From Halarchaeum nitratireducens (GTDB taxonomy: Archaea > Halobacteriota > Halobacteria > Halobacteriales > Halobacteriaceae): a stretch of 64,000 nucleotides of DNA. Both the position numbers and the translations under genes were made by a program. The stretch's first letter is position 1; every line of letters begins with the position of its first letter. Below the pieces are notes generated by a model. That model was given only the letters and a program-made list of their open reading frames with translations, searched no databases and had not been told where the DNA came from. Shown one piece after another: positions 20,700 through 52,117 of the stretch. The stretch covers positions 62,001-126,000 of the forward strand of contig NZ_BMOQ01000006.1 of the NCBI RefSeq assembly GCF_014647155.1, in the 5' to 3' direction.

Positions 20700-20768
20700 A
20701 GTAGTGGGTCGGATTCGCTCGTCGCTGGCTCATGACCCCGTCCAACGCGGTCGACGACCGGGCACCGC

Positions 20769-25969: not shown

Positions 25970-25984
25970 AACGTTTGCTGTGTA
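25970..25984 (+). promoter_or_regulatory. Island operator site A (overlaps start of aminotransferase 1)
   Basis: AACGTTTGCTGTGTA matches 12 of 15 positions of TACGGWWWCYGTGTA. Its last base is the A of the start codon at 25984, and the TATA-like TTTTAAT lies at 25953-25959, so the site covers the expected transcription start of a leaderless mRNA. Confidence 0.6.
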
Positions 25985-27336
25985 TGGATAGGGATACCGC
26001 GGAGCCCGATACCGCAGCGTTTCCCGGGCCGAACGCCGAGCGGTGGATCGATTTTCACTCCCGGCACGCGGCGCCGAGCGAGTACTCCCACGAGTTCGTC
26101 TGGGACGTCACGGCGGAGGCTGACGGGCCGTTCGTGACCGACGTCGACGGGAACGTTCTCCTCGACTTCACGTGTCACATCGGCGCGGCACCGCTCGGCT
26201 ACAACAACGAGAAGGTGCTCTCGAAGCTCCGCGAGTTCGACCTCGTCGAGCCGATGAAGATCGCGGGACAGGACATGTACTTCGGCGCCGGCCCCGATCC
26301 CGAGACGGCCGAATTCCCGGGAGCGAGTTACCTGATGGAGGCGCTCGTCGACGTCTCCGATCAGTACGGGATGGACACCGTTTTCCTCTCGAACTCGGGT
26401 GCCGAGGCGGTCGAGAACGCGATGAAGATCTGCCACGACTACAAACCGCCGGCGAAGTACGCCTACGCCTTCGAGAACAGCTTCCACGGGCGGACCGTCG
26501 GGACGCTCTCGCTCACGAAGTCCAAGGAGGTCTACACCCGCCACTACCCCGAGGTCGGCGGCGTGCAGACGATCCCGTTCTGCGACTGCGAGAGCCGGGC
26601 GGCCTGCGACTGTGGCTTCTTCGCCGGCGGGAGCTCGCGCCTCCGGGACGCGCTCGCCCCCGAGGGCGGCCACGTCAACCCCGAGGAGGTCGCGTTCCTC
26701 GTCCTCGAACCCGTGCAGGGCGTCGGCGGCTACCGGTTCCCGAACGAGGCGTTCATGGCCGAAGTCGGCGACGTCTGCGACGCGTACGACATCCCGCTCG
26801 TCGTCGACGAGATCCAGTCCGGCGTCGGGCGGACGGGCGAGATGTGGGCGGCGGATCACTACCCCGTCGAGCCGGACGTCATCGCCGCCGCGAAGGGGCT
26901 CCGCGTGGGCGCGACGATCTCCCGCTCCGAGGTCTTCCCCGCGGAGAAGAACCGCCTCGGGTCGACGTTCGGCGGCGGCGACCTCCTCGCGTCCATGCAG
27001 GGTGCGCTCACCCTGGAGGCGATCGACGAGCACGACCTCCTCGAGAACGCCACCGAACGCGGCCGGCAGGCGAGAGAGATCCTCCGCGACGGCGCGCCCG
27101 ACCACGCCGTCGACGTGCGCGGCGAGGGGCTGATGCTCGCCGTCGAGTTCGACACCGGGGATCGCCGGGACGCCGTCGTCGCGGCGGCGCTCGATCGCGG
27201 TCTCCTCACCCTCGGGTGCGGGAAGAAGACGATCCGCCTCCTCCCGCCGCTCGATAGCACCGAGCGCGAGATCGAACTGGGCGCGGAGCTCTTCTGTGAC
27301 GCCATGAACGCCGTCACGGCGGACGCCGTGGCGTAG
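25984..27336 (+). CDS. Class III aminotransferase 1 (PLP-dependent)
   Basis: A 450-residue fold-type I, class III aminotransferase. Visible are SNSGAEAVENAMK (PLP phosphate region, about 138), FHGRTVGTLSLT (about 170), VVDEIQSGVGRTGEMW (about 263-278) and the PLP lysine in AAKGLRVGA (about 305). A Cys-rich insertion, CDCESRAACDC (about 200), is unusual and may bind metal or be structural. Members act on omega- or alpha-amino groups of 4-aminobutyrate, ornithine or diaminobutyrate. The gene is probably leaderless and controlled by site A. In an ectoine route it could serve the transamination step together with or instead of aminotransferase 2. Confidence 0.87.
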   Translation: MDRDTAEPDTAAFPGPNAERWIDFHSRHAAPSEYSHEFVWDVTAEADGPFVTDVDGNVLLDFTCHIGAAPLGYNNEKVLSKLREFDLVEPMKIAGQDMYFGAGPDPETAEFPGASYLMEALVDVSDQYGMDTVFLSNSGAEAVENAMKICHDYKPPAKYAYAFENSFHGRTVGTLSLTKSKEVYTRHYPEVGGVQTIPFCDCESRAACDCGFFAGGSSRLRDALAPEGGHVNPEEVAFLVLEPVQGVGGYRFPNEAFMAEVGDVCDAYDIPLVVDEIQSGVGRTGEMWAADHYPVEPDVIAAAKGLRVGATISRSEVFPAEKNRLGSTFGGGDLLASMQGALTLEAIDEHDLLENATERGRQAREILRDGAPDHAVDVRGEGLMLAVEFDTGDRRDAVVAAALDRGLLTLGCGKKTIRLLPPLDSTEREIELGAELFCDAMNAVTADAVA

Positions 27337-29148: not shown

Positions 29149-29201
29149 CACCATGCACGGAAACGTTATGTGGTCGGCCATGCAAGCGAGGATCACGTGT
29201 C

Positions 29202-30581
29202 ATGCAGACGGTGAACCCGACGACAGAGGCGGAGTTGGAGACGTACGCACACCACGACGGGGAGGCGATCGAGGAGGCGCTCGACGCCGCGTCGACGGCC
29301 TTCGAGGAGTGGAGCGCGCGCGACGTCACGGAGCGACAGACGCTCGTCGGCTCGATCGCCGGCGGCCTCCGGGAGAACCTGGAGGAGTACGCCGCGTTGA
29401 TGACCGACGAGATGGGAAAGCCGCTCGATCAGAGCCGCGGCGAACTCGAGAAGTGCGCGTGGGTCTGTGAGTACTACGCGGAGAACGCCGCGGAGTTCCT
29501 CCAAGACGAGCGCGTCGGCGTCCACCCCAAGGTGAAGACGAAGGTGTCCTACGAACCGCTGGGGCCGCTGGTCGCGGTCATGCCGTGGAACTACCCCTTC
29601 TGGCAGGTGCTTCGCGTCGCCGCGCCGACGCTCGCCGCCGGGAACACGATGCTCCTCAAACACGCCCCGAACGTCACGGGCTGTGCGACGGCCATCGAAG
29701 ACCTCCTCCACGACGTCGGCATTCCCGAGGGGACCTTCCAGACGCTCGTCGTCGGACCCGACGCCGTCCACGACGCGATCGCCGACGACCGCGTCGCCGC
29801 CGTCACCCTCACCGGGAGCACTCGCGCCGGCAGCGCCGTCGCCGAGACCGCCGGAAAACACCTCAAACCCTCCGTCCTCGAACTCGGCGGGAGCGACCCC
29901 TTCGTCGTCCTCGACGACGCCCCGATCGAGCGCGCCGCGAGCGTCGGCGTCGACGCTCGCACCAAGAACAACGGCCAGGCCTGCATCGCCGCCAAGCGCT
30001 TCATCGTCGTCGACGACGTCTACGAGGCGTTCAAAGAGCGCTTCGTCGCCGAGATGAACGACCTCGTCGTGGGCGACCCGACGGAGTCCGAGACGGACGT
30101 CGGCCCGCTGGCGCGCGACGACCTCCGCGACACCCTCGACGAGCAGGTCCGGGCGACCGTCGACGCCGGCGCAGACGTCCTGCTCGGCGGCGAACCGCTC
30201 GATCGCGAGGGCTACTTCTACGCGCCGACGGTCCTGGAGAACGTCCCCGAGGGGACGCCGGCGGCCCGCGACGAGCTGTTCGGGCCGGTCGCCAGCCTCT
30301 TTCGCGTTCCCGACGAGGCGGCCGCAGTCGAGCTGGCCAACGACACCGACTACGGGCTCGGCGCGAGCGTGTGGACGAGCGATCTGGACCGGGCCGAGCG
30401 GCTCACCGGCGAGATCGAGGCCGGTGCGGTCTTCGCGAACGAGCTCGTCTCCTCCGATCCCAGACTCCCCTTCGGCGGCGTGAAGAGCTCCGGGTACGGC
30501 CGGGAGCTCTCCTCGCAGGGGATCCGGGAGTTCACCAACGAGAAGACCGTCTGGCTCTCCCCGCCCGACGGTCTCGAATAG
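29202..30581 (+). CDS. Succinate-/aspartate-semialdehyde-type aldehyde dehydrogenase
   Basis: A 459-residue NAD(P)-dependent aldehyde dehydrogenase. Motifs are VMPWNYPFWQVLR (about 126), the nucleotide loop LTGSTRAGSAVAET (about 203), ELGGSDPFVVLDDA (about 227) with the general base Glu, and the catalytic Cys in NNGQACIAAKR (about 262). It is closest to the GabD/Sad semialdehyde dehydrogenase group. The DoeC enzyme of bacterial ectoine degradation, which oxidises aspartate semialdehyde to aspartate, belongs to the same group, so that role is inferred here. The ATG at 29202 gives the standard MQTVNPTTE N-terminus. Two operator sites lie in its leader. Confidence 0.85.
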   Translation: MQTVNPTTEAELETYAHHDGEAIEEALDAASTAFEEWSARDVTERQTLVGSIAGGLRENLEEYAALMTDEMGKPLDQSRGELEKCAWVCEYYAENAAEFLQDERVGVHPKVKTKVSYEPLGPLVAVMPWNYPFWQVLRVAAPTLAAGNTMLLKHAPNVTGCATAIEDLLHDVGIPEGTFQTLVVGPDAVHDAIADDRVAAVTLTGSTRAGSAVAETAGKHLKPSVLELGGSDPFVVLDDAPIERAASVGVDARTKNNGQACIAAKRFIVVDDVYEAFKERFVAEMNDLVVGDPTESETDVGPLARDDLRDTLDEQVRATVDAGADVLLGGEPLDREGYFYAPTVLENVPEGTPAARDELFGPVASLFRVPDEAAAVELANDTDYGLGASVWTSDLDRAERLTGEIEAGAVFANELVSSDPRLPFGGVKSSGYGRELSSQGIREFTNEKTVWLSPPDGLE

Positions 30582-30713
30582 GCTGTCAACGATTTCTGAG
30601 TACTCTCGGCCCCGAGACCCCGCGTCGTGAGCGACGGTCGCCCCGACGCGGGGATGGGAGCGCGTCGTTCGCCTCCGAGAGCGCCGTTTGCACAAACGTT
30701 AAACACGTCTGTA

Positions 30714-30728
30714 TACGCAATCTGTGTA
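30714..30728 (+). promoter_or_regulatory. Island operator site C (overlaps start codon at 30728)
   Basis: TACGCAATCTGTGTA, 14 of 15 consensus positions. As at site A, the last base is the A of the ATG, and a TATA-like CGTTAAAC is about 25 nt upstream, so the site covers the start of a leaderless transcript. Confidence 0.65.
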
Positions 30729-31357
30729 TGGGAGAACACGACCCGACCGAAGACGAGAGCCGGCCGCGGGGTATTCTGACGCCGAGCGACCGGGAGTTCC
30801 TGCTCGGACACAAGACGGACTACACGGACCACTCGAAGAAGCAGAAGCGAAACCGGATCCGACGACGGCTCCGGAACGCGATCCTGGATTTCTCGATCCT
30901 CTTCGAGCACCTCGAAGAGCGCGACCGGGAGACGGTGTTCGACCCGGACGACGAGGCCCGCGAGGCGTACACGCGGGGCATCACGAACATGCTCGGCTTC
31001 CTCCATCTGGGGACGATCGGCTACTACGTGCCGTTCAAGCACATGCTCGCGGAAGGCGTGAACAAGGCCGAACAACAGCTCGCGGACTCCGATTATCGGA
31101 TGGTGAACGTCGAGTTCAACGTCGATCCCGTCGGCCGGATCGACGTCGACGACGTCGTCGATAAGATCGAGAACGACGAGTTCGAACAGCTCACCGACGA
31201 GGAGCTCCGGGCGTTCGTCCGTCTGCTCACCGAGAGCGACGACTTCTCGCCGGACGCCGCCCGCGAGAACCTGCACGCACAGATGGAGGATTACGTCGGA
31301 AAGGTCGAGTCGGCGGCGCAGCGACGCGAGCAGAAGGTCGAAGAGCTGAGCGAGTAA
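30728..31357 (+). CDS. Conserved haloarchaeal protein of unknown function
   Basis: A 209-residue soluble, highly charged protein. It opens with GILTPSDREFLLGHKTDYT and a basic helix RRRLRNAILDFSILFEHLEE, then MLGFLHLGTIGYYVPFKHML, an acidic middle with VEFNVDPVGRIDVDDVVDKI, and a helical C-terminus. Similar LTPxDREFLLG proteins are widespread in haloarchaea, but no function is known to me. It is preceded by a consensus operator overlapping its start codon, and so is a member of the island's regulon rather than a bystander. It could be a DNA- or membrane-associated accessory factor; that is open. Confidence 0.75.
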   Translation: MGEHDPTEDESRPRGILTPSDREFLLGHKTDYTDHSKKQKRNRIRRRLRNAILDFSILFEHLEERDRETVFDPDDEAREAYTRGITNMLGFLHLGTIGYYVPFKHMLAEGVNKAEQQLADSDYRMVNVEFNVDPVGRIDVDDVVDKIENDEFEQLTDEELRAFVRLLTESDDFSPDAARENLHAQMEDYVGKVESAAQRREQKVEELSE

Positions 31358-31525: not shown

Positions 31526-31540
31526 TACACGGAATTCGTA
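31526..31540 (-). promoter_or_regulatory. Island operator site D1
   Basis: On the minus strand TACGAATTCCGTGTA, 14 of 15 consensus positions. It is 24 bp centre-to-centre from site D2, i.e. about two helical turns, and both lie upstream of the ABC transporter operon. Confidence 0.6.
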
Positions 31541-31549
31541 GACGATACC

Positions 31550-31657: not shown

Positions 31658-32845
31658 ATGAGTGACCAAAGACCGACTTCGACCGTGAGACGGCGGACGG
31701 TTCTCGGATCGATCGGTGCCGGTGCGATCGCCGGTCTCGCGGGGTGCGGTTCGAGTAGCGGTGACGGCGACGAGGGCGGCACGACCGGCGGGACGGCGTC
31801 GAGTTCGACCGGCACGGCGTCGGGCGTGAAGGACTTCGGCGGGACCGAGATATCCGTCCTCCTCAACGGCGGGCCGATCCAGGAGGGGTTCCGGCAGATC
31901 GTCATCCCGCACGTCGAGGAGAAGTACAACATGACGATCAACAGCTCGGTCGCGTTCACGAGCGAGCAGATGTCGCAGGCGCGTTCGAATCCGAACAACC
32001 CTCCGGACGCGTTCAACATGGACGTCATCGGCGTCGCCGCGGGGAACCGCGAGGGGTGGCTCGAAGACCTCTCGGCACACGCCGACGCGCTCGCGAACTG
32101 GGACAGCATCCACCCGAAGCTCCGCCACGAGGACTACGGGCACGCCGGCGTCTCGTGGCAGATCGGTGAAGTCGGCCCCGTGCTCAACACCGGCACGGGC
32201 GTCTGGGACGCGGGGTCGCTTCCCGCCACGCAGGACGCGATCTTCCGGAACTGTCGAGACGTCTCGATGACGCCGTTCTCGTGGACGAACGGACCGTACA
32301 CGCTCCTGCTCGCGTCCACCATCGCCACGGACAACGGCAAGGAGTACTTCCAATCGAGCGACGTCGACGTCGAGGCGGGGTTCGAGTACCTCCGAGAGAC
32401 GCTCGCGCGGAAGAACACGACGACCATCACCGGCGAGTCACAGCTCCGGAACATGATCGGCTCCGGGAACGCCGACACCATCCCCAGCATCTACATGTTC
32501 GGGATGATCGACGTCTGGCAGAACGTCGACGACGTCACCTTCGCGCGGAACCTCGACCCGCTCTCCATCCCCATCGCGGAGTCGCTCGGCGTCGCCGCCG
32601 AGAGCGACAACAAGGAGGCCGCGCTCGCGTACGTCAACGAGGCGTTCGATCCCGAGATCCAGCGCCGGCTCTCGCAGTTCATGGGCACCGGTACGGCCGT
32701 CGAGGGGGTCGAGAACCAGCCGAAGGCCCGGGAGTTCGGCGCGCCGACCCCGGACGAGTTCGACAACCTCGTCTGGCCGGACTTCGACTACGTCTCGGAG
32801 AACCGCTCGCAGTGGAGCAACCGCTGGTCACAGATCTTCGGGTGA
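31658..32845 (+). CDS. ABC transporter substrate-binding lipoprotein (spermidine/putrescine type)
   Basis: A 395-residue extracellular lipoprotein. The N-terminus carries a Tat motif RRRTVLG (residues 11-17) and a lipobox LAGC with the acceptor Cys30, followed by a flexible Ser/Gly/Thr linker. The rest is a type II periplasmic-binding fold of the PotD/extracellular solute-binding family 1 kind. It is the first gene of an operon with one ATPase and two permeases of the PotABC type. The ligand may be ectoine, a polyamine or another amino compound; gene context favours the first. A TATA box 27 nt upstream indicates a leaderless start. Confidence 0.87.
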   Translation: MSDQRPTSTVRRRTVLGSIGAGAIAGLAGCGSSSGDGDEGGTTGGTASSSTGTASGVKDFGGTEISVLLNGGPIQEGFRQIVIPHVEEKYNMTINSSVAFTSEQMSQARSNPNNPPDAFNMDVIGVAAGNREGWLEDLSAHADALANWDSIHPKLRHEDYGHAGVSWQIGEVGPVLNTGTGVWDAGSLPATQDAIFRNCRDVSMTPFSWTNGPYTLLLASTIATDNGKEYFQSSDVDVEAGFEYLRETLARKNTTTITGESQLRNMIGSGNADTIPSIYMFGMIDVWQNVDDVTFARNLDPLSIPIAESLGVAAESDNKEAALAYVNEAFDPEIQRRLSQFMGTGTAVEGVENQPKAREFGAPTPDEFDNLVWPDFDYVSENRSQWSNRWSQIFG

Positions 32846-32849
32846 ACGC

Positions 32850-33941
32850 ATGAGCACCGACAGCCAGGGCCGCGTCGAGTACGCGGACGTCGTGAAGGAG
32901 TACGGCGACGTCACCGCGGTGAAGGAGGCGAGTTTCACCGTCGAGCCCGGCGAGTTCGTCGCGCTCCTCGGGCCCTCGGGCGCGGGCAAGACGACGCTCC
33001 TGCGGATCCTCGCCGGCTTCGAGGAGACGAGCGGCGGTCGCCTCACGCTCGACGGGCGCGACGTCGACGCCGTCCCGCCACACGAGCGCAACACGGGAAT
33101 GGTGTTCCAGTCGTACGCGCTCTTCCCGCACATGACGGTCCGAGAGAACATCGAGTTCGGCCTGAAGCGCAACGGCTTCGACGGCGACGAGATCGACGAG
33201 CGCGTCGAGACCGTGCTCTCGATGGTCGACCTAGCGGGGTACGGCGACCGGAAGCCCGCGAACCTCTCCGGCGGCCAGCAACAGCGCGTCGCGACGGCGC
33301 GCGCCGTCGCCATCGAGCCGAGGGTCCTACTGATGGACGAACCGCTCGGCGCGCTCGACAAGAAGCTCCGCGATCAGCTCCAAGTGGAGTTGACGGACCT
33401 CCAGAGCGACCTCGGCATCACGACCCTGTACGTCACGCACAACCAGTCCGAGGCGCTGACGATGGCGGATCGAATCGTCGTGATGAGTCAGGGGCGCATC
33501 GAGCAGATCGGCACGCCGACGGAGATCTACGACGCCCCCGCGACGCGGTTCGTCGCGGAGTTCATCGGCGACGCGAACTTCTTCGAGGGCGACCTCGACG
33601 CCGACGGCGAGTCGTTCACGACCGCCGGCGGGACGACGCTCGACGTGACGTACGATTCGGCACCGGCGGGGACGCCGTGCGCGTTCGTTCGTCCCGAGCG
33701 GATGGATCTCGCCCCTCGCGGGGAGGGGGACGGCGCGAACGTCGTCGCCGGCACCGTCGAGAACGTCCGCTTCGTCGGATCAACGACGCAGTACTACGTG
33801 TCGACGGTCGACGGCCGACTCCTCGTCGAGCGGCAGAACCAACGCGTCGACGCGGCGTTCGCCGAGGGCGACGCCGTCGACGTGACGTGGGCGCTCGCGG
33901 ACACGCGTGTCGTCACGGACGATCCGGCGGACGGAGCGTGA
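32850..33941 (+). CDS. ABC transporter ATP-binding protein (PotA-like)
   Basis: A 363-residue ATPase. Walker A is GPSGAGKTT at 41-49, signature LSGGQQQR at about 134, Walker B VLLMDEPLGALD after it, and a switch His in YVTHNQSEAL. The C-terminal about 110 residues form a TOBE/OB domain (PERMDLAPRG), as in the polyamine and iron type importers. It starts four bases after the binding-protein gene and energises the two following permeases. Confidence 0.93.
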   Translation: MSTDSQGRVEYADVVKEYGDVTAVKEASFTVEPGEFVALLGPSGAGKTTLLRILAGFEETSGGRLTLDGRDVDAVPPHERNTGMVFQSYALFPHMTVRENIEFGLKRNGFDGDEIDERVETVLSMVDLAGYGDRKPANLSGGQQQRVATARAVAIEPRVLLMDEPLGALDKKLRDQLQVELTDLQSDLGITTLYVTHNQSEALTMADRIVVMSQGRIEQIGTPTEIYDAPATRFVAEFIGDANFFEGDLDADGESFTTAGGTTLDVTYDSAPAGTPCAFVRPERMDLAPRGEGDGANVVAGTVENVRFVGSTTQYYVSTVDGRLLVERQNQRVDAAFAEGDAVDVTWALADTRVVTDDPADGA

Positions 33942-33947
33942 GCGCGG

Positions 33948-34868
33948 ATGTCGATCATGAGTAAACGGTTCCGCGAGGGCGTCTCGAAGCGCCTCACGAC
34001 GATGCTCGGTACGTACGGGGGGTCGCGCCACGCGAAGTGGCTCCTCCTCGCCCCGGCGCTGCTCGTGCTCGTCGGCCTGCTCTACGCGCCGACCGCGTTC
34101 ATCCTCCAGGAGAGCGTCCGCGTCGGTTCGCACCTCGGTCTCACGCACTACGCGAGCGTCGTCGTGAGCGGCTACTACCGGTCGGTCGCCCTCCGCACGC
34201 TCGGGATCGGACTGCTCGTCACGCTCCTCACGTTCGCCCTCGGTTTCCCGCTCGCGTACGCGGCGGTCCGCGGGGGCCGCCTCCTCGGCGGCGCCATCGT
34301 CGTCGCGACGCTCGCGCCGCTCTCCGTCGACCTCGTCATCCGCACGTACGGGTGGTACATCCTGCTGGGGCAGGGTGGACCCGTGCCGAAGCTCCTCGTC
34401 GCGCTCAGAGTTGGCACGGTCGAGAGCCCGCCGCAACTGCTCTTCAACACCGCCGGTATCGTCGTCGGCCTCACGCACGTCCTCCTCCCGTTCATGGTGT
34501 TCCCGATCATGACCGTCCTCCACACGATCCCGAGGGAGTACGAGGAGGCCGCGCGCAACCTCGGCGCGAACCGCCTCGGGGTGTTCGCGCACGTCCTCCT
34601 TCCGCTCGCGCTCCCGGGGATCGCCGCGGGGATGCTCCTCGTCTTCACGAACAGCATCGCCGCGTACGTCACCCCGGCCATCCTCGGCGGGAGCACGCAG
34701 ACGCTGGCGACCGAGATCACGTCGATCTTCACGACGACGAACGACTGGGGGCTGGGCTCCGCGCTCGCGGTGTTGCTGGTCGTCGTTGCCGTCTGCATCA
34801 TCGTCGGCTATCAGCGGGCGATGGAGGCCGCGGGCGGCGCGATCGGCGGGACCGGGGGTGAGCGCTGA
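33948..34868 (+). CDS. ABC transporter permease 1 (PotB-like)
   Basis: A 306-residue inner permease with six predicted membrane segments (for example WLLLAPALLVLVGLLYAPTA and GLLVTLLTFALGFPLAYAAV). The EAA loop, EYEEAARNLGANRLGVFAHV, which couples to the ATPase, is near residues 197-216. Alternative ATG codons at 33948 and 33957 differ by three residues. Its stop overlaps the next permease start (TGATG). Confidence 0.9.
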   Translation: MSIMSKRFREGVSKRLTTMLGTYGGSRHAKWLLLAPALLVLVGLLYAPTAFILQESVRVGSHLGLTHYASVVVSGYYRSVALRTLGIGLLVTLLTFALGFPLAYAAVRGGRLLGGAIVVATLAPLSVDLVIRTYGWYILLGQGGPVPKLLVALRVGTVESPPQLLFNTAGIVVGLTHVLLPFMVFPIMTVLHTIPREYEEAARNLGANRLGVFAHVLLPLALPGIAAGMLLVFTNSIAAYVTPAILGGSTQTLATEITSIFTTTNDWGLGSALAVLLVVVAVCIIVGYQRAMEAAGGAIGGTGGER

Positions 34869-35734
34869 TGGCGACCGCGAGCGAGGAGAGCGACGGCAGT
34901 CGACTGTCGGCCGGCGTCGGCGCGGTCGCCGACTGGGCGTACCGGCTGCTCGTCTACGGCGTCCTCCTGTTCACGGTCGCACCGCTCGTCGTCGTCGTCC
35001 TGCTCTCTTTCCGACCGAACCCCTACGGGAACTCGGTCTTCTCGGCCGGGTGGCCGTCAACGACGTGGTACGCGAACCTCCCGGACCTCCTCGCCTCGCT
35101 CGGGTTCGCGAGCTCGCTGATCGCGAGCCTCAAGATCGCGGTCGTCACGACGATCCTGTCGCTCCTCATCGGCGGGCTGGCGGCGTACGCGATCGTACGC
35201 AAGGAGTTCAGCTACTCCTCGCTGCTCGAAACCGTGCTGATCTCGCCGCTCGTCTACCCGTGGCTCCTGATGTCGCTCGCCATCCTGATGACGGCGTCCT
35301 ACCTGAGCGGGGCGTTCGACGTCCGGATCTCGATGTCGTTCTCGACGCTGCTCGCCGGACACGTCCTCTTCACGTTCCCCTATCCGATCCGCACCATCGG
35401 GGCGGGACTCCAGAACTACGACGACGAACTCGACGAGGCCGCGCGCAACCTCGGTGCGACGCGCCTCGACACCGTCTGGAACGTCACCCTCCCGCTACTC
35501 CGCCCCGGGATCATCAGCGGCGCGGCGTTCGTCTTCATCCTCTCGTTCAATCAGTACATCATCTCGCTGTTCCTCTCCGGGACGAGCATCCAGACGGTGC
35601 CGCTCCTCATGTTCAACCTCATCAAGGCACAGAGTCCGCCGCAGATAGCCGTACTCGGGACGATGCTCATGGCCGGCATGGTCGCGTTGACGATCGTCGT
35701 CGAGTACGTCGCCGGAATGAGCCGCTACATATGA
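34868..35734 (+). CDS. ABC transporter permease 2 (PotC-like)
   Basis: A 288-residue permease with six membrane segments and the coupling loop ELDEAARNLGATRLDTVWNV (about 191-210). It pairs with permease 1 to form the transmembrane channel. The last four bases overlap the start of the RidA gene (ATGA), so the RidA-like protein is translated from the same mRNA. Confidence 0.9.
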   Translation: MATASEESDGSRLSAGVGAVADWAYRLLVYGVLLFTVAPLVVVVLLSFRPNPYGNSVFSAGWPSTTWYANLPDLLASLGFASSLIASLKIAVVTTILSLLIGGLAAYAIVRKEFSYSSLLETVLISPLVYPWLLMSLAILMTASYLSGAFDVRISMSFSTLLAGHVLFTFPYPIRTIGAGLQNYDDELDEAARNLGATRLDTVWNVTLPLLRPGIISGAAFVFILSFNQYIISLFLSGTSIQTVPLLMFNLIKAQSPPQIAVLGTMLMAGMVALTIVVEYVAGMSRYI

Positions 35735-36135
35735 CAGAGAGACGCACACTCGCCACGGCTGACGCACCGGACACGGACACCCCCTACTCGCAGGGCGTGC
35801 GAGCCGGCGACTTCGCCTTCGTCTCCGGCTTCGGTCCCGTCGACCCGGAGACGATGGACGACGTCGAGGGCGACGTCGCCGCGCAGACGCACCGCTGTCT
35901 CGACAACGTCGAGGCGGTGCTCGCGGACGCGGGCGGGGGCCTCGCCGACGCGGTGAAACTCACCGTCTATCTCGACGACATGGGCGACTACGACGCGGTC
36001 AACGAGGCGTACGCGGCGCGCGTCCCGAACGACGTCCCGCCCGCGCGCGTCTGCGTCGAGACGGCCCGCCTGCCGGGCGACGTCGCGGTCGAGATCGACG
36101 CCGTCGCCTACCTCCCCGGGGGCGACGGCGAGTAA
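35731..36135 (+). CDS. ridA: RidA-family reactive-intermediate deaminase
   Basis: A 134-residue RidA/YjgF-type protein. Conserved features are the N-terminal TPYSQGVRAGDFAFVSGFGP (about 16-35), VKLTVYLDDMGDY (about 73) and the active-site region VPPARVCVETARLP with the key Arg (about 102). RidA hydrolyses enamine/imine intermediates released by PLP enzymes such as threonine dehydratase. Here it would protect against intermediates made by the two aminotransferases and the dehydratase-like enzyme of the island. Confidence 0.88.
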   Translation: MTERRTLATADAPDTDTPYSQGVRAGDFAFVSGFGPVDPETMDDVEGDVAAQTHRCLDNVEAVLADAGGGLADAVKLTVYLDDMGDYDAVNEAYAARVPNDVPPARVCVETARLPGDVAVEIDAVAYLPGGDGE

Positions 36136-36369: not shown

Positions 36370-37743
36370 TCAGGCGGTGGCGCCACGCTCGGCCGTGACG
36401 TGGTCGATGGCCTCGCAGATGACGTCGAGTGCGGTGTCGGCCTGCGCCTCGGTGAGCACGAGCGGCGGGAGGAGGCGGAGGACGTTCCCGTGCGGGCCGG
36501 CCTTCCAGACGAGGACGCCGCGCTCGTAGCAGTACCGTTGGACGGCCTTCACGGCGTCCGCGGCGGGCGTTCCGTCTGGATTCGTGAACTCGGCGCCGAC
36601 GAACAGCCCCTTCCCGCGGACGTCGCCGACGAGCGGGGCGTTCACGTCGCGCAGGCGCTCGCGGACGTGGGCTCCGAGGTCGCGGGCGTGCGCGAGCAGG
36701 TCGTGTGCCTCGATGTACTCGATGGCGCGCGAGCCGGCGCGCATGGCGACGACGTGTCCCCGGTAGGTGCCGGCGTGATCGCCGGGGCCCCACGTGTCGA
36801 GGTCCTCGTGGTAGATCGTCGCGGAGAGGGGGAAGCCGACGCCGCCGAGCGCCTTCGCGGTGGTGACGATGTCGGGCGTCACGTCGTAGTGGTCGCTCGC
36901 CCACCACTGTCCCGTGCGGCCGAGGCCGGCCTGGATCTCGTCGACGACGAGCGGGAGGTCGTTGTCGTCGGCGATCTCGCGGAGGCCGGCGAGGAACCCC
37001 TCGGGGGGCGTGACGACGCCGCCCTCGCCCTGGATGGGCTCGACGAAGATGCCCGCGGGGTTCGTGAGGCCGCTGTACGGGTCCTCGACGATGGCGCGCA
37101 CCTCTTCGAGCGAGCGCGCGACGGCCTCCTCGGGGGGCCGGTCCTGCGCGTAGGGATGGGGGTAGGGTGCGAACTCGACGTCACCGAGGAGCGGGGCGTA
37201 GGGCTCCTTGAAGTCCTTCTTGCCGGTGATGCTCATCGCGCCGCTGGTCGCGCCGTGGTAGGAGCCGCGGAAGGCGATGAGACCGTGGCCGCCGGTGTTG
37301 TACTTGGCGAGCTTGATCGCGGCCTCGATCGCGTCGCTCCCGGTGGGACCGCCGAAGACGACCTTGCTGTTGCCGGCGAGGTCGCCGGGCGCGCGCGCCT
37401 CGAGCTTCTCGATGAGGTCGAGACGCGGCTCGCTCGGGAAGTCGACGGTGTGGACGAGCTTGTCGGCCTGCTCGTGGACCGCCTCCATCACGTAGGGGTT
37501 GGCGTGGCCGACGTTCAGCACGCCGATACCGGCGAACATGTCGAGGAAGACGTTGCCGTCGACGTCCTTGATCGTCGCGCCCTTCGCCGCGTCGGGGACG
37601 AGCGGGATGTGGTCGGGGTAGGCGACCGCGTTCGAGTCGATCGCCTCCTGACGTTCGAGCAGGTCGCGTCCCTTCGGGCCGGGGAACTCCCCAACGTGCG
37701 GTGCGTCGTCGAAGTGGATGTCCTCGATCGGTGGTCCGACCAT
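36370..37743 (-). CDS. Class III aminotransferase 2, candidate diaminobutyrate transaminase
   Basis: A 457-residue class III, PLP-dependent aminotransferase. Motifs: VVFGGPTGSDAIEAAIKLAK (about 130), FRGSYHGATSGAMSITG (about 158), VVDEIQAGLGRTGQWW (about 258-273) and the PLP lysine in TTAKALGGVGFP (about 292). The GPTG-DA and YHG-T-GA blocks resemble diaminobutyrate-2-oxoglutarate aminotransferases, which fits a DoeD-like step from 2,4-diaminobutyrate to aspartate semialdehyde. The start at 37743 lies 25-30 nt from the TATA-like TAAGTTATTT and so is probably leaderless. It is divergent from the ectoine-hydrolase gene with an operator between them. Confidence 0.83.
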   Translation of the reverse strand: MVGPPIEDIHFDDAPHVGEFPGPKGRDLLERQEAIDSNAVAYPDHIPLVPDAAKGATIKDVDGNVFLDMFAGIGVLNVGHANPYVMEAVHEQADKLVHTVDFPSEPRLDLIEKLEARAPGDLAGNSKVVFGGPTGSDAIEAAIKLAKYNTGGHGLIAFRGSYHGATSGAMSITGKKDFKEPYAPLLGDVEFAPYPHPYAQDRPPEEAVARSLEEVRAIVEDPYSGLTNPAGIFVEPIQGEGGVVTPPEGFLAGLREIADDNDLPLVVDEIQAGLGRTGQWWASDHYDVTPDIVTTAKALGGVGFPLSATIYHEDLDTWGPGDHAGTYRGHVVAMRAGSRAIEYIEAHDLLAHARDLGAHVRERLRDVNAPLVGDVRGKGLFVGAEFTNPDGTPAADAVKAVQRYCYERGVLVWKAGPHGNVLRLLPPLVLTEAQADTALDVICEAIDHVTAERGATA

Positions 37744-37800
37744 ACGCGTTGTCACGCGGTACGACACCAAATAACTTATCCACAGATTCGAGAGACATCA

Positions 37801-37817
37801 TACACAGATTCTGCGTA
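37801..37817 (-). promoter_or_regulatory. Island operator site E (between aminotransferase 2 and doeA)
   Basis: On the minus strand TACGCAGAATCTGTGTA, a 17-bp near-perfect dyad (TACRCAGA-A-TCTGYGTA). Its right part matches the 15-bp consensus with 12 of 15. It lies about 60 bp before the aminotransferase start and about 100 bp before the ectoine hydrolase start, so it could control both. Confidence 0.6.
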
Positions 37818-37918: not shown

Positions 37919-39094
37919 ATGGCACGAACCCCGTTCTCGCAGACAGAGTACGATCGGCGTCTCGAACGTACGCAGGAGCGACTCCGCGAGGAGGGCCTCG
38001 ATGCGCTCGTCGTCGCCGATCCGGCGAACATGAACTACCTCTCAGGCTACGACGGATGGTCGTTCTACGTTCATCAGTGTCTCATCGTCACGCCGGAGCG
38101 CGATCCCGTCTGGATCGGCCGCGGACAGGACGCGAACGGCGCGCGGGCCACCGTCTGGCTCGACGACGACGACATCCTCGCGTACTCCGACGACCACGTC
38201 CACTCGCCGGTCGACAAGCACCCGATGGATTTCGTCGCGTCGGTGTTGGAGGAGATGGGACTCGCGGACGCGACGATCGGACTGGAGATGGACGCCTACT
38301 ACTTCACCGCGAAGTCCTACACGCGCCTCCAGTCGAACCTCCCGGCGGCGACGTTCGAGGATCACACCCTCCTCGTCAACTGGGTGCGGGTGAGGAAGTC
38401 CGACGCCGAGATCGAGTACATCGAGCAGGCGACGGACATCTCGGCGGCCGCGATGGACGCCGCGATGGACACGATCGCCGAGGGCGTCCCCGAGTCCGAA
38501 GTCGCCGCCGAGATCTACGAGACGCTCGTCGCCGGGACCGAGGCCCACGGCGGCGACTACCCCGCGATCGTTCCGCTGATGCCCTCCGGCGATCACACCG
38601 ATACGCCACACCTCACGTGGACGGACCGGGAGTTCGAGGACGGCGACCCGGTCATCGTCGAACTCTCGGGCTGTCGACACCGCTATCACTCGCCGCTCGC
38701 GCGAACCGCGTTCGTCGGCGACCCGCCCGAGATCCTCACCGAGACGGCGGACATCGTCGTCGAGGGGCTGAACGCCGCGCTCGACGCCGCCGAGCCCGGC
38801 GTGACCGCCGAGTCCGTGGAGAAGGCGTGGCGGGACGTCATCGAACGCCACGGGATCGAGAAGACGTCCCGGATCGGCTACTCGATGGGGCTGGGCTATC
38901 CGCCGGACTGGGGCGAGCACACCGCGAGCCTCCGTCCGAAGGACGAGACGGTGTTGGAGGCGGGCATGACGTTCCACCTCATTCCCGGCATCTGGACGTC
39001 CGACGTCGGCTTCGAGCTCTCCGAGACCTTTCACGTCACGAAGAACGGCGCCGAGCGCTTCTCGACGTACCCGCAGCGGCTCTTCGAGCGCTGA
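37919..39094 (+). CDS. doeA: Ectoine hydrolase DoeA/EutD homologue (M24 creatinase-like family)
   Basis: A 391-residue creatinase/aminopeptidase-fold enzyme. It matches Halomonas DoeA (about 399 residues) through most of its length: NYLSGYDGWSFYVHQC (about 39-54), WIGRGQDANGAR (about 63-74), HPMDFVASVLEE (about 100), GGDYPAIVPLMPSG (about 207), PHLTW, the ELSGCRHRYHSPLARTAFVG block (about 242-261) and GYPPDWGEHTASLRP (about 325). DoeA opens the ectoine ring to N-acetyl-L-2,4-diaminobutyrate in the cytosol. As in that group, the usual M24 dinuclear metal ligands are not all present. A TATA-like GTTTAATAG lies near 37877-37885. A different creatinase-like substrate is the main alternative. Confidence 0.83.
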   Translation: MARTPFSQTEYDRRLERTQERLREEGLDALVVADPANMNYLSGYDGWSFYVHQCLIVTPERDPVWIGRGQDANGARATVWLDDDDILAYSDDHVHSPVDKHPMDFVASVLEEMGLADATIGLEMDAYYFTAKSYTRLQSNLPAATFEDHTLLVNWVRVRKSDAEIEYIEQATDISAAAMDAAMDTIAEGVPESEVAAEIYETLVAGTEAHGGDYPAIVPLMPSGDHTDTPHLTWTDREFEDGDPVIVELSGCRHRYHSPLARTAFVGDPPEILTETADIVVEGLNAALDAAEPGVTAESVEKAWRDVIERHGIEKTSRIGYSMGLGYPPDWGEHTASLRPKDETVLEAGMTFHLIPGIWTSDVGFELSETFHVTKNGAERFSTYPQRLFER

Positions 39095-39097: not shown

Positions 39098-40063
39098 TCA
39101 GTCCGAACCGCGAACGAGGTTCGTCAGGTCGTCGACCGAGCCGCCTCGATCGAGGTGGCGGACGTTCTCGGCGACGATGTCGGCGAGACGCGTCCAGTGT
39201 TTCGGCGTGTGACCGCCGGTGTGGGGCGTGATGAGCGCGTTTTCGAGCGTCCAGAGCACGTGGTCCTCGGGGAGCGGCTCGGGGTCGGTGACGTCGAGGG
39301 CGACGCCGCGGAGCGCTTCGGTCTGGAGGGCGGAGACGAGCGCGTTCGTGTCGACGAGGCCGCCGCGCGCGGCGTTCACGATCACGGCGCTCGGGTCGAG
39401 CGTGGCGAGTTCCGCCTCGCCGATGAGGCCCCGAGTCGTCTCGGTGAGCGGACAGGCGAGCACGAGGTAGTCCGTGCGCGCGAGCGCGGCGTGGAAGTCG
39501 CGCTCGTCGAAGCCGATGACCTCGTCGGTCGGCCCGCCCTTCGCGGGCGTGTAGCGCACGCCGACGGTGTCGACGCCGAACCCCCGGAGGCGCTCGACGA
39601 CGCACTGGCCGATCGCCCCGAGGCCGACGACGGTGACGGTCTTGTCGGTGAGTTCGTCCGATTGGAAGTGGCGCCACTCGCGCCGTGCCTTGCGCCGCCA
39701 GGCCTCGTGGAGGCGGCGGTCGAAGGTGAGGATGTGCCCGATGGCTTGCTCGGCGATCCCGGGCGCGTGGATGCCGCCGGCGTTCGTGACGGCGACACCC
39801 CGCGAGACGAGGTCGTCGACGGGGACGTGATCGGTGCCGGCGAAGGTGCACGCGAAGAGATCGAAGGAGCCCGCGGCGTCGAGGACGCCGTCGTCGACGG
39901 TGATACCGGTGATGACGTCCGCGTCGGCGGCGAGATCGCGTTCCTCGTGCGGGGTGCGGGCGTGCCCGATATCGTGGTCGGGGAGACGCTCGCGGAGTTC
40001 GTCGGCGTAGTCGGCCATCGAGAGCCCCTCGGTGCCTTCGCGGAGGACGAGTACGTCGCTCAT
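39098..40063 (-). CDS. D-2-hydroxyacid dehydrogenase 1
   Basis: A 321-residue NAD(P)-dependent 2-hydroxyacid dehydrogenase. The dinucleotide fold motif VVGLGAIGQCVVERL is at about 144-158, the catalytic Arg in NAARGGLVDT (about 233), and the catalytic His in TPHTGGH (about 285). The haloarchaeal RYTPAKGG insertion (about 170) is shared with a paralogue at 60943-61872. The ATG at 40063, not 40087, matches the usual MSDVLVL start and lies about 32 nt from a CTTAAG box. It is convergent with doeA, with only three bases between the stops, and divergent from the M20 gene with operator F between. Substrate unknown; glyoxylate/hydroxypyruvate or a keto acid side product is possible. Confidence 0.87.
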   Translation of the reverse strand: MSDVLVLREGTEGLSMADYADELRERLPDHDIGHARTPHEERDLAADADVITGITVDDGVLDAAGSFDLFACTFAGTDHVPVDDLVSRGVAVTNAGGIHAPGIAEQAIGHILTFDRRLHEAWRRKARREWRHFQSDELTDKTVTVVGLGAIGQCVVERLRGFGVDTVGVRYTPAKGGPTDEVIGFDERDFHAALARTDYLVLACPLTETTRGLIGEAELATLDPSAVIVNAARGGLVDTNALVSALQTEALRGVALDVTDPEPLPEDHVLWTLENALITPHTGGHTPKHWTRLADIVAENVRHLDRGGSVDDLTNLVRGSD

Positions 40064-40119
40064 CGTGTCGTCGGTACCGACTGTCACGAACGTCTTAAGC
40101 CTTTCTCGTAGATGGCGAA

Positions 40120-40134
40120 TACGGTTTCCGTGTA
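40120..40134 (+). promoter_or_regulatory. Island operator site F
   Basis: TACGGTTTCCGTGTA fits the consensus at all 15 positions. It lies between the TATA-like boxes of the divergent hydroxyacid dehydrogenase (CTTAAG, 40095) and M20 amidohydrolase (ATTTATT, 40135-40141) genes. Confidence 0.65.
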
Positions 40135-40167: not shown

Positions 40168-41451
40168 ATGACGAGCGAGCACGTTCGCGGCCGGCTGAGC
40201 GAGGTCCGCCGGGCGTTCCACCGACACCCCGAGCCCGCGTGGTGTGAGTTCCGAACCACGTGTCGGCTCGTCGAGGAACTGCGGGGGATCGGCGTCGACG
40301 AACTGCACGTCGGGCGCGACGCGATCGCCGAGGACGAGCGCATGGCCGTCCCGGACGCCGACACGCTCGATCGGTGGTACGAGCGGGCGCGGGAGGCCGG
40401 TGTCGATCCGGGCGTCCTCGAACGACTCGTCGGCGGCTACACGGGCGCCGTCGCGGTGCTGGAGCGCGGCGAGGGACCGACGATCGGGCTCCGCGTCGAT
40501 ATCGACGGCCTCCACATCGAGGAAGCGGCGGGCGAGTCGCACGCGCCCGCGGCCGAGGGGTTCCGGTCGGAGACCGACGGAACGATGCACGCTTGCGGGC
40601 ACGACGCCCACGTGACCGTCGGTCTCGGCGTCCTCGAAGCCGTGAAGGCGAGCGAGTTCGCGGGGACCTTCAAGGTGTTCTTCCAGCCCGCGGAGGAGGA
40701 GTCCGGCGGCGGGAAGGCGATGGCGGAGAGCGAGCACATGGACGACGTGGACTGCCTCTTCGCGGTCCACGTCGGTCTCGGACACCCGACGGGCGAGGTC
40801 GTCGCGGGCATCGTCGAACCGCTGGCGATGGCGCACATCACCGCGACGTTCCACGGCGAGGCCGCACACGCCGGCAACGCGCCACAGGAGGGGCGAAACA
40901 CGATCCAGGCCGCGTCGCGCGCGGTGGGTGACCTCTACGGCATCCCGCGGCACGCCGACGGGGCGACGCGCGTGAACGTCGGGCGTATCGAGGGCGGGAG
41001 CGCGAGCAACGTCGTCGCGGACGAGACGACCGTCTGGGGCGAGGTGCGCGGCGAGACGACCGCGCTAATGCGCTACATGCAGGACGCCTTCACGCGGCGC
41101 GTCGAGGCGGCCGCCGCGGCCCACGGCTGTACGGTCGACGTCGACGTCGTGAGCGAGTCACCGCGCGCCGACAGCGACCCCGACCTGGCCGCGCTCGTCG
41201 GCGACGCCGCCCGCGGTCGCGCCGACGTCGACACCGTCCACGAGAGCGCGCCGTTCGGCGCGAGCGAGGACGCGACCTTCCTGATGCGACACGTGCAGGA
41301 GGCGGGCGGGCTCGCGACGTACGCCGTCGTCGGCACCGACCACCCGGGGGACCACCACACGCCCACCTTCGACGTGGACGAACGAACGCTCGATACGGGT
41401 GTCGGCGTGCTCAGCGACGCCGTCCTCGCGGCGGCGGAGGATCACCGATGA
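40168..41451 (+). CDS. M20-family amidohydrolase, candidate N-acetyl-diaminobutyrate deacetylase
   Basis: A 427-residue zinc amidohydrolase of the M20D (aminoacylase/AbgB) type. Metal-site elements are GLRVDIDGLHIEEA (about 110), HACGHDAHVTVGLG with the conserved Cys and His residues (about 144-157), QPAEEESGGGKAM (about 177) and the lid domain after AEAAHAG-like GEAAHAGNAP. Such enzymes remove acyl groups from amino acids. In ectoine degradation the step after DoeA is deacetylation of N-acetyl-diaminobutyrate; bacteria use the unrelated DoeB, so an M20 enzyme may replace it here (inference). The ATG at 40168 fits the TATA box at 40135. It overlaps the next gene by four bases. Confidence 0.8.
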   Translation: MTSEHVRGRLSEVRRAFHRHPEPAWCEFRTTCRLVEELRGIGVDELHVGRDAIAEDERMAVPDADTLDRWYERAREAGVDPGVLERLVGGYTGAVAVLERGEGPTIGLRVDIDGLHIEEAAGESHAPAAEGFRSETDGTMHACGHDAHVTVGLGVLEAVKASEFAGTFKVFFQPAEEESGGGKAMAESEHMDDVDCLFAVHVGLGHPTGEVVAGIVEPLAMAHITATFHGEAAHAGNAPQEGRNTIQAASRAVGDLYGIPRHADGATRVNVGRIEGGSASNVVADETTVWGEVRGETTALMRYMQDAFTRRVEAAAAAHGCTVDVDVVSESPRADSDPDLAALVGDAARGRADVDTVHESAPFGASEDATFLMRHVQEAGGLATYAVVGTDHPGDHHTPTFDVDERTLDTGVGVLSDAVLAAAEDHR

Positions 41452-42740
41452 GCGAGCACGGGGACGGCGACCGCACCGCGGACGGCGTCGTCACGCTCGC
41501 GGACATCGAGGACGCACGCGAGCGCATCGACGACGTGATCAACGACACGCCGCTCGACACCTCGCGGACGCTCGCGGAGCGGTCGGGAGCCGCCGCGGTC
41601 GGCCTCAAGCTGGAGAACATGCAGCGTACGGGCTCGTTCAAGATCCGCGGCGCGTACAACACGATGGCCCAGCTCCCCGAGTCGGCGCGCGAACGCGGCG
41701 TCGTCACGTCGAGCGCGGGGAATCACGCACAGGGCGTCGCTCACGCCGGGGAGCACCTCGGGATCGACACGACCATCGTCGTCCCGGAGGTGACGCCCGC
41801 GGCGAAGATCGACGCCACGCGGGGATACGGTGCCGACGTCGTGGTCCACGGCGACATCTACGAGCGCTCCTACGAGCGCGCGCTCGCGCTCGCCGAAGAA
41901 CACGGATACGCGTTCGTTCACCCGTTCGACGACGGCGACGTCATCGCTGGGCAGGGAACGATCGGCCTCGAACTCCGCGAGGAGTTCGGCGACATCGACA
42001 CCGTCCTCGTCTCGATCGGCGGGGGCGGACTCATCGCCGGTATCGCCACCGCACTGACCGCCCACGACGACGACATCCGCGTCGTCGGCGTCCAACCCGA
42101 GGGCGCTGCCCACGTGCCTCCGTCACTCGAAGCCGGCGAGATCCGCGAACTCGGCGGCGTCGATACGGTCGCGGAGGGGATCGCCGACACCCGTCTCCTC
42201 GAACGTACGTGGGCGGTCGTCTCGGAGCGCGTCGACGACGTCGTCACGGTCAGCGACGCCGAGATCACGTGCGCGCTCGCGGTGCTCGCGGAGCGCGTGA
42301 AGACCGTCGCGGAAGCGGCGGGCGCCGCGCCCGTGGCGGCGCTCCTCGGCGACGACCTCGACATCACGGGAGAGCGCGTCGCCGCCGTCGTCTCGGGCGG
42401 GAACACCGACCTCACCGAACACGGCGAGCTCGTTCGGACGGGCCTGATGCGTCTCGGCCGCTACGCCGAGGCGCGCGTCGCCGTGGCCGACTGGCCGCAC
42501 GGTCTCGACGCGCTCACCGACGTGATCGCCGACGCCGGCGCCGAGCTCGACGAAGTCGCCCGCCGGCGGCTGACGAGTGCGGACCACCCGAACCGGACTC
42601 CGGTCGCCGTCTCGCTCGCGGGGAGCGGACCCGCGCACCTCCGCGAGACCGTCGCGGCCGTCGATGCGACCGACGGGCTCGCAGTCGTCGAGCACTCGAT
42701 CGGTGCCGGCGGCGAGACCGGAGCGGGCGACGGCGGATGA
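41448..42740 (+). CDS. Threonine dehydratase-like PLP lyase (IlvA/EutB type)
   Basis: A 430-residue fold-type II PLP enzyme. The PLP lysine is in RTGSFKIRGAYN (about 64-69), SSAGNHAQGVAHA (about 86) holds the substrate loop, and SIGGGGLIAGIA (about 188) binds the phosphate. The C-terminal about 110 residues are a divergent ACT-like regulatory region. Threonine dehydratase makes 2-oxobutyrate from threonine. In some bacterial ectoine clusters a related protein, EutB, is linked to hydroxyectoine use. Overlap with the M20 gene (ATGA) puts it in the catabolic operon, so the second role deserves thought, though ordinary IlvA cannot be excluded. Confidence 0.8.
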   Translation: MSEHGDGDRTADGVVTLADIEDARERIDDVINDTPLDTSRTLAERSGAAAVGLKLENMQRTGSFKIRGAYNTMAQLPESARERGVVTSSAGNHAQGVAHAGEHLGIDTTIVVPEVTPAAKIDATRGYGADVVVHGDIYERSYERALALAEEHGYAFVHPFDDGDVIAGQGTIGLELREEFGDIDTVLVSIGGGGLIAGIATALTAHDDDIRVVGVQPEGAAHVPPSLEAGEIRELGGVDTVAEGIADTRLLERTWAVVSERVDDVVTVSDAEITCALAVLAERVKTVAEAAGAAPVAALLGDDLDITGERVAAVVSGGNTDLTEHGELVRTGLMRLGRYAEARVAVADWPHGLDALTDVIADAGAELDEVARRRLTSADHPNRTPVAVSLAGSGPAHLRETVAAVDATDGLAVVEHSIGAGGETGAGDGG

Positions 42741-50523: not shown

Positions 50524-50896
50524 GACTCCTCATGCGTGGAGCTAGATCGGATTAAAACTTTGGATAAAAGACAAGATATCGAATAGACGAAAACGTTCAG
50601 ACAACGAATTACCGCAGAGCATTCGATATCGGTCACGGGACGGTTCGAGCAGTAGAAAAGGCGATGCCGAGGTATCGAGAGGCTAACGGTCGCGTTCCCC
50701 CGAGCGCGATCAGGTGTTCGCAATGCACGAACGCGACGCTGTCCCGCGTATTCGCGGCGAGCGTCGGTGGAGATATCGTCCGCTGTTGTGTCACTAGCTC
50801 TCACGGTCGGTGTGATACGGTGGGTTTACACAGATATATTTGTAATAGAGTCCGGACACCAGCCGCGTCGAGCCGTTCGGACATTGCAAACGGTTC
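50524..50896. other. Intergenic stretch before the molybdenum hydroxylase operon
   Basis: This holds the operon promoter (TATA near 50552) and the third copy of the AT-rich 21-bp motif (50825-50845), and no supported gene. The motif lies 52 bp past the IclR-3 stop and about 300 bp before the iron-sulfur subunit start. Confidence 0.5.
50825..50845. promoter_or_regulatory. Copy 3 of the shared 21-bp AT-rich motif
   Basis: TTTACACAGATATATTTGTA followed by A, matching TTTACN2ANATATANTTGT. Like copy 1 it is positioned just beyond the 3' end of a minus-strand IclR gene. Confidence 0.5.
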
Positions 50897-51691
50897 TCAG
50901 GCGTGGCTATTCATGTTCAGACTGACCTCGATGACGTTCACGGCGCGGGTGATGCGCTCCGGGAGGTCCTCGTGAAAGCGCTCGTCGCGCATGAAGCTCG
51001 CTGGACCGGAGACACTGAGCGACCCGAGCACCTCCCCTTTCGGGTTGCGGATCGGCGCACCGATCGCGCGGAACCCCTCGATTTCTTCACCGTCGTTGTA
51101 CGCGTAGCCGCGCTCGCGGATCGCCTCGAGTTCCGCGAACAGGTCGTCGGGGTTCGTAATAGTGTTGTCCGTGCGCGCGGGAAGGCCGTGGCTCTCGACG
51201 ATCTCCTCGACACGATCGCGGGGGAGGTAGGCGAGGATCGCCTTCCCGGACGCCGTATAGTGGAGGTGGTCGCGGTGCTGGGGCTTCTCGGACTGGTAGT
51301 CGTCGCTGATGCTCGTCTCCCCCTTCACCTGATAGAGGTTGATCCCGAAGCCGTTCTCCTCGGTGACGATGTGCGTGTACTGGCCGGTTTCCTCGGCGAG
51401 TTCGTCTACCTCGGGCTTCCCGTAGCGGTAGAGCGGACTCCGGTGACGGGCGTACTCACCGATCACGAAGAACTTGAACGCGATCTCGTACTCGCCGTCG
51501 CGCTGGACGAGAAAGCCGTTCTTCTCGAGTGTCTTGAGGTGGATGTAGGCCGTGCTCTTCGAGAGATCGAGGAGATCAGCCAGTTCCGTGACGCCGACGC
51601 TCCCGTGCTCGCGCACGGCCTCGACGACGTCCGCTGCCACTGAGACGGTCTTCAGCGTTCGTGGGCTGTCATCCGTATCACCCGCGGTCAT
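50897..51691 (-). CDS. IclR-family transcriptional regulator 3
   Basis: A 264-residue IclR protein. The winged helix (VGVTELADLLDLSKSTAYIH, about 27-46) is followed by an effector domain with YTASGKAILAYLPRDRVEEI and GSLSVSGPASFM. It lies between the molybdenum hydroxylase operon (same strand, downstream) and the divergent ABC importer/hydantoinase operon, so either or both are likely targets. The start is uncertain: ATG codons at 51691, 51718 and 51721 are in frame; the first gives the usual short N-terminus before SPRTLKTVSVA. Confidence 0.86.
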   Translation of the reverse strand: MTAGDTDDSPRTLKTVSVAADVVEAVREHGSVGVTELADLLDLSKSTAYIHLKTLEKNGFLVQRDGEYEIAFKFFVIGEYARHRSPLYRYGKPEVDELAEETGQYTHIVTEENGFGINLYQVKGETSISDDYQSEKPQHRDHLHYTASGKAILAYLPRDRVEEIVESHGLPARTDNTITNPDDLFAELEAIRERGYAYNDGEEIEGFRAIGAPIRNPKGEVLGSLSVSGPASFMRDERFHEDLPERITRAVNVIEVSLNMNSHA

Positions 51692-51721
51692 ATTCCACTC
51701 GAACGCCTCTACCCACATCAA

Positions 51722-52117
51722 TGTTCGGCTATTTCAACCGTATCTCAATGAGTTCGAAACAAACAGGCGGTTATCTGGAGTGTTAGAAAAACACCTCGAA
51801 GTAGAATGGGGTCCAGACGCAGAGTCATCAGCGGTCCGCTCTTCGGTCCGAGATATGTGAACGGTGACGTGTTCAGGGGGACAGTCGAGCGCGTGATCCG
51901 CAGTATACGAGAGACGGATTCTCCGATCGGGAACCGGGTGACTACACAGCCAGGAGAGTGGGGGGACAGACGCTGCGTAAGACTTTTCAACTATTGGTAG
52001 AAAGTGGTCTAATGTGTTCAGAACGAAGTCAATCGTCGAAGTATTTGGGCATAATGATGAACAATCCGCATCTGATACGCGGACAGCTGCACCGATCGGA
52101 ATAGTGGGGACGGAGAG
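51722..52117. other. Divergent control region of IclR-3 and the ABC/hydantoinase operon
   Basis: No supported gene. AT-rich segments at about 51991-52013 (CTATTGGTAG and vicinity) and 52040-52060 (GTATTTGGGCATAATG) may hold the promoter of the importer operon. No dyad like those of the 24-42 kb island is present. Confidence 0.4.

Follow-up and report, generated by a model that had tools for sequence, protein, structure and literature searches.

Gene organization of the locus

Two genes on the forward strand, encoding an M20 hydrolase of 427 aa (40168-41451) and a PLP lyase of 430 aa (41448-42740), lie together in a haloarchaeal genome of 3.14 Mb, within the 64-kb stretch of DNA (positions 62001-126000 of the contig) that was analysed as a whole and is referred to here as the window. 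Both open reading frames are present and have the ATGA at 41448-41451 in common, in agreement with the four-base overlap described in an earlier note on this DNA. The first product is an AbgA-like M20 amidohydrolase, proposed to deacetylate alpha-N-acetyl-diaminobutyrate as a substitute for DoeB, and the second is an IlvA-like PLP ammonia-lyase, a proposed hydroxyectoine-branch enzyme in one operon with the M20 gene.

The rest of the locus is of the ectoine type. A DoeA/EutD-like ectoine hydrolase of the M24 family (37919-39094, plus strand) reaches 467.3 bits against TIGR02993, below the cut-off of 613, and aligns over nearly its full length with the solved DoeA 6twk (386.7 bits). A class III aminotransferase resembling DoeD (36370-37770, minus strand) has diaminobutyrate (DABA) transaminases among its best NCBIfam families, below their cut-offs, and a second class III aminotransferase (AT1; 25984-27336, plus strand), also recognized through NCBIfam, is kept in the haloarchaeal locus. 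In addition, there are a succinate-semialdehyde dehydrogenase (SSADH)-like gene with a proposed DoeC role (29196-30581, plus strand) and a gene for a RidA-family enamine/imine hydrolase (35740-36135, plus strand) that scores over the cut-off of TIGR00004. A D-2-hydroxyacid dehydrogenase gene (39098-40087, minus strand), divergent from the M20 gene, is a conserved partner; it is kept in most haloarchaeal loci and adjoins a FAD/Fe-S oxidase of 1,055-1,070 aa in some of them (L042, L109).

Transport is represented by a BCCT transporter (24235-25860, plus strand; PF02028, 503.8 bits) and by the genes of an ABC importer, namely a binding protein, an ATPase and two permeases (31658-35734, plus strand). 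An IclR-family regulator (23142-23948) adjoins the BCCT gene. The locus also encodes a conserved protein of 209 aa (30728-31357, plus strand), which matches no Pfam or NCBIfam family and has orthologues of 67-73% identity in ectoine-type loci; its predicted structure, built from six sequences, has a pLDDT of 44.8, and it is possibly a regulator or an accessory protein.

Families and ancestry of the hydrolase and the lyase

The M20 enzyme belongs to the AbgA-like M20D family TIGR01891 (260.2 bits; cut-off 153.75). Its score against DoeB2 (NF038260), 125 of the 550 bits needed, rules out membership of that NCBIfam family, and DoeB/EutE (TIGR02994) is absent among its listed family matches. The best solved relative is PDB 3io1, annotated as an aminobenzoyl-glutamate utilization protein (285.6 bits; next entry 106). 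The AlphaFold model (pLDDT 89.5) likewise has this AbgA structure as its closest solved fold (Z 47.7, 389 aligned residues, 2.2 A), the next entry reaching Z 40.1. Residues C143, H145, E176, E177, H201, H234 and H397 are identical across the M20 groups compared; we take C143, H145, E176, E177, H201 and H397 to be metal/catalytic-type positions, of which the enzyme thus has the complete set. The AbgAB aminobenzoyl-glutamate hydrolase requires an adjacent AbgB partner gene, and no second M20 gene adjoins this one among the open reading frames of the window, which sets it outside AbgAB.

The lyase scores above the cut-off of the threonine ammonia-lyase family TIGR01127 (IlvA_1Cterm; 391.8 bits, cut-off 378.75), a putative assignment as regards its substrate. 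It had been likened to the EutB of bacterial clusters, an identity that score, tree position and active-site motifs all rule out. Against the EutB family TIGR02991 it obtains 232.4 bits, below the cut-off of 413.35 (Rhizobium EutB as control, 545). In the tree, the lyases form a long-stemmed 100/100 clade next to TdcB and the IlvA proteins of haloarchaea (86/89), and EutB stands apart in a clade of its own (100/97). The motif SAGNHAQG is of the IlvA type, whereas EutB has T and G at its second and sixth places. The genome does contain further ilvA genes, with three paralogues at 44-46% identity. Clade-specific residues of the lyase include D247 and H222, and one may speculate that residues of this kind bind a cationic substrate; taken together, the residue differences in the M20 enzyme and the lyase hint at altered pockets.

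Bacteria, too, have an M20 gene next to DoeA, in 52 of the 65 bacterial loci (manual count), and in this respect the arrangement is less distinctly archaeal than the earlier note supposed. What does hold of that view is that the archaeal M20 is of another lineage. The haloarchaeal M20s group with the AbgA type, and the bacterial DoeA-linked M20s lie across a 100/100 branch. A single clade of haloarchaeal and bacterial DoeA-linked M20s is rejected by the AU test (p 0.00018, a loss of 208 log units), which rules out a common origin of all DoeA-linked M20s. Judged from these trees, the haloarchaeal M20 is a recruitment independent of the bacterial ones. The haloarchaeal DoeA-linked M20s fall on one side of a weakly supported branch (51/39, and 81/40 in another tree), and a Haladaptatus M20 copy without DoeA places close to them.

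Operator, linkage to DoeA and absence of DoeB

Genes of the locus are preceded by a 17-base palindrome with the consensus TACACAGATTCTGTGTA. At 12 or more of 17 matches, this consensus occurs at seven places in the window, all before genes of the locus, with 1.7 expected per Markov copy of the window. The consensus was derived from the window itself; an independent matrix was therefore of value as a second measure, and 23 sites from the promoters of doeA and AT1 in other genomes served to build it. The eight places in the window where this matrix scores best lie upstream of the gene for the 209-aa protein (30712-30728, rank 1), the DoeD-like and DoeA genes (two, including the palindrome between them at 37801-37817, rank 2), the SSADH-like gene (29011 and 29132, ranks 3 and 4), the M20 gene, the BCCT gene (23987-24003, rank 7) and the ABC genes (31526-31542).

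The site upstream of the M20 gene, AATACGGTTTCCGTGTA (40118-40134), had been called a perfect operator. It is a real one, with a matrix score of 19.1 that ranks fifth in 64 kb and exceeds the best among 30 Markov copies (15.2), but it is an imperfect palindrome, in which 5 of 8 arm positions pair (read by eye) and 12 of 17 bases match the consensus. Across 18 further loci, 27 sites match at 13 or more of 17 positions (expectation 2.2), and 14 of 18 M20 promoters of these loci carry the site at -45 to -57. Some M20 promoter sites are weak, at 10/17, a score reached by 22% of 720 random 150-base stretches. The operator is common to the M20 and doeA promoters and conserved across genera. Lyase promoters have no site beyond random (mean 8.6), as expected for a gene in an operon with the M20 gene, and the lyase is a member of the regulon. 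The IclR-family protein is a candidate binder of the palindrome.

The M20 enzyme (60-65% identity) recurs in 13, and the lyase (61-68%) in 11, of 15 named haloarchaeal DoeA loci. In a survey of 145 genomes of the class Halobacteria, DoeA (at 1e-130) was found in 51, at least 46 of which have an M20 gene no more than 12 kb from it and at least 20 of which have two M20 genes within 30 kb; in five there is no M20 near DoeA. Two loci, L035 and L037, are without an M20 nearby, yet their genomes carry two and three copies. As the M20 subfamily (1e-110) is present in 140 of the 145 haloarchaea, its basic function is presumably something else, and to our knowledge no function has been assigned to it. 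Two or more copies occur in all 51 genomes with DoeA versus 5 of the 94 without it, where 84 have one copy and five none (Fisher p 8e-34, a descriptive value, the genomes being related). These extra copies speak against the universal haloarchaeal M20 as the sole source of the signal. The lyase (1e-115) was found in 40 of the 145 genomes, all 40 among the 51 with DoeA. The profiles, 51/51 and 40/51, indicate that the extra M20 copies track DoeA fully and the lyase partly, as a side branch would.

A compact set in Halomarina sp. BND7 comprises genes for M24, D-2-hydroxyacid dehydrogenase, amidohydrolase, ilvA, aminotransferase, BCCT, RidA, a further aminotransferase, AOR and IclR; here an aldehyde ferredoxin oxidoreductase (19982-21643 of locus L110) stands in place of the SSADH-like gene of the window and is a possible alternative for aspartate-semialdehyde oxidation. 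In Halorubrum, a second M20 (63%) adjoins the 209-aa protein (L036, 19682-20962; L040, 18384-19871), and paired M20s might split the alpha and gamma isomers between them. Haladaptatus species (L037, L118) have an extra DoeA locus without an M20 nearby, and in one of these the neighbours of DoeA are the 209-aa protein and a transporter of the BCCT family. The second M20 copy of the source genome (60% identity) is located outside the window, at 50580-51806 of the contig, in a cluster of the glycine-betaine/serine type with Rieske oxygenase, RidA, IlvA, GlyA and HbpS, which resembles one in Halarchaeum sp. CBA1220.

No DoeB/EutE gene is present in the 64-kb window, as the earlier note had stated, and the search for an orthologue elsewhere in the genome, whose discovery would have told against an M20 substitute, returned with TIGR02994 three weak AspA-family matches of 98.7, 93.7 and 81.1 bits (cut-off 402.7). 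The family is over its cut-off in 0 of 14 haloarchaeal genomes, the Rhizobium plasmid giving 618 bits in the same search. Among the 145 Halobacteria genomes, there is no DoeB/EutE orthologue (best about 114 bits of 402.7) and no TIGR02994 match that reaches 1e-60; the control for the latter search is the separate Rhizobium plasmid result, its own controls having given no match. With Rhizobium proteins as queries against 18 haloarchaeal loci and the window, DoeB had no match, no EutC was found, and EutA had one match (28%), in L037. EutC (TIGR02992, cut-off 471.65) is likewise over its cut-off in 0 of 14 haloarchaea, with 173.6 bits in the source genome and 576 in the control.

It could be supposed that an AspA/AstE-family protein encoded elsewhere performs the deacetylation and that the M20 enzyme serves the gamma isomer or hydroxy-acetyl-DABA only. 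AspA-family matches at 1e-20 exist in all 145 genomes, none over the cut-off; six genomes, all of one genus, have such a gene at a distance of 16-24 kb from DoeA, and the two M20s within 30 kb in at least 20 of 51 genomes leave room for divided labour. This division is nevertheless quite unlikely, given that AspA-family copy number does not track DoeA (mean 2.39 vs 2.27, p 0.21), that the best match of the source genome falls so far below the cut-off, and that Rhizobium DoeB matches nothing in the regulon loci. The M20-lyase pair might also be a general amino-acid scavenging operon that came to lie near DoeA by chance, since an M20 and a threonine/serine dehydratase adjoin without DoeA in Natrononativus and are near each other in Halarchaeum. 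The co-location of M20 and DoeA, the nested profiles and the operator common to M20 and doeA make such a coincidence highly improbable.

A different question is whether the regulon degrades ectoine or another N-acylated or cyclic amino-acid solute that the M20 enzyme splits. The DoeA-like protein and both aminotransferases score below curated cut-offs, and members of the M20 subfamily are found in contexts of the peptide type too, for instance with M28 and TldD peptidases on pNMAG02 of Natrialba magadii. Another solute is still unlikely in view of the alignment of the DoeA-like protein with the solved ectoine hydrolase and of the Bacillota relatives at 50-59%, among which are loci where EutB and cyclodeaminase are annotated.

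A proposed haloarchaeal route and its relation to known systems

We therefore favour, at a probability of about 0.7, the reading that treats the locus as a regulon for ectoine utilisation in haloarchaea and its M20 enzyme as an alpha-N-acetyl-DABA deacetylase that substitutes for DoeB. Genomic context, operator, phylogenetic profile and the absence of EutE agree with the substitution that was suggested earlier. Since the DoeA-like protein reaches 467 of the 613 bits that NCBIfam requires, ectoine is put forward as the probable substrate, and the reactions, their order and their regulation are proposed in the same sense. Ectoine would be imported via the BCCT or the ABC transporter and its ring opened by DoeA to yield alpha-N-acetyl-diaminobutyrate, perhaps with the gamma isomer too. 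Next, the AbgA-like M20 enzyme, standing in for DoeB, would release the acetyl group, and DABA would be converted to aspartate via the aminotransferase and SSADH-like enzymes. The corresponding steps are known from Halomonas and Ruegeria, according to the portions available of PMC3187862, PMC8739950 and PMC5924519.

The IlvA-like lyase, encoded on the mRNA of the M20 gene, probably serves the hydroxyectoine branch, where it would deaminate a beta-hydroxy amino acid. An enzyme of its threonine-dehydratase fold could accept hydroxy-DABA, a compound that has the beta-hydroxy amino acid structure in common with threonine; the enamine would be cleared by RidA, whose presence in the locus is consistent with such a product. 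The sections found of PMC8739950 record the EutABC steps for hydroxyectoine as uncertain and DABA as present in hydroxyectoine-grown cells. It is conceivable, if doubtful, that haloarchaea rebuilt ectoine and hydroxyectoine catabolism round DoeA, with a duplicated AbgA-like M20 for DoeB, convergent with bacterial M20 lineages, and the IlvA-like lyase and RidA for EutABC, such that hydroxy-DABA would become 4-amino-2-oxobutanoate by direct dehydration/deamination without the EutC reduction. Because the EutABC chemistry is uncertain (PMC8739950, in part), an archaeal lyase working without EutC could help to settle how EutB acts.

Bacteria in brines commonly contain the solutes ectoine and hydroxyectoine, whose use by archaea has so far been proposed from gene clusters only (PMC13188858, as far as its text was available). 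Once the missing deacetylase has a candidate, for which both an operator and a clean phylogenetic profile are available, the archaeal route becomes testable with two or three enzymes. If the proposal is true, proteins of three or more separate lineages would carry out acetyl-DABA deacetylation next to one and the same hydrolase. Earlier reports already cover deacetylases of the M20 type in the ectoine loci of bacteria (NCBIfam DoeB2) and clusters in archaea (PMC13188858, in part); a literature search of partial coverage found no assignment of the M20 enzyme or the lyase in archaea, nothing on DoeB2 and nothing on EutB with hydroxyaspartate.

PMC13188858 (2026) describes, in the parts available, putative Halobacteria clusters, which it calls provisional and in which genes for EutD, an aminopeptidase, an aminotransferase and a BCCT transporter occur. 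These are of the same kind as the locus in the window, which also has EutD, aminotransferase and BCCT genes; aminopeptidase and aminotransferase genes are named there, and the deacetylase, the lyase type and the operator are not among the features found in those parts. The same parts provisionally record 'abgB' amidohydrolase genes in Bacillaceae where eutE is absent. The Bacillota and Thermodesulfobacteriota M20s beside DoeA resemble the present case in position and in the absence of eutE, but their identity is mostly 24-30%. DoeB/EutE (TIGR02994) shares the proposed reaction and the place after DoeA with the M20 enzyme, whereas it is aspartoacylase-like and belongs to another protein family. 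DoeB2 (NF038260), an M20-type deacetylase named in NCBIfam, shares both superfamily and proposed reaction, and yet the window enzyme is nearer to AbgA. This subunit A of p-aminobenzoyl-glutamate hydrolase is its nearest characterised relative (39.6% identity to the E. coli protein, besides the structural match), from which it differs in having no neighbouring AbgB gene and in its ectoine-type context. The lyase, for its part, has the fold family and the cluster context of the hydroxyectoine utilization dehydratase EutB (36% identity to the Rhizobium protein), while its IlvA-type motifs, its C-terminal extension and its separate clade set it apart.
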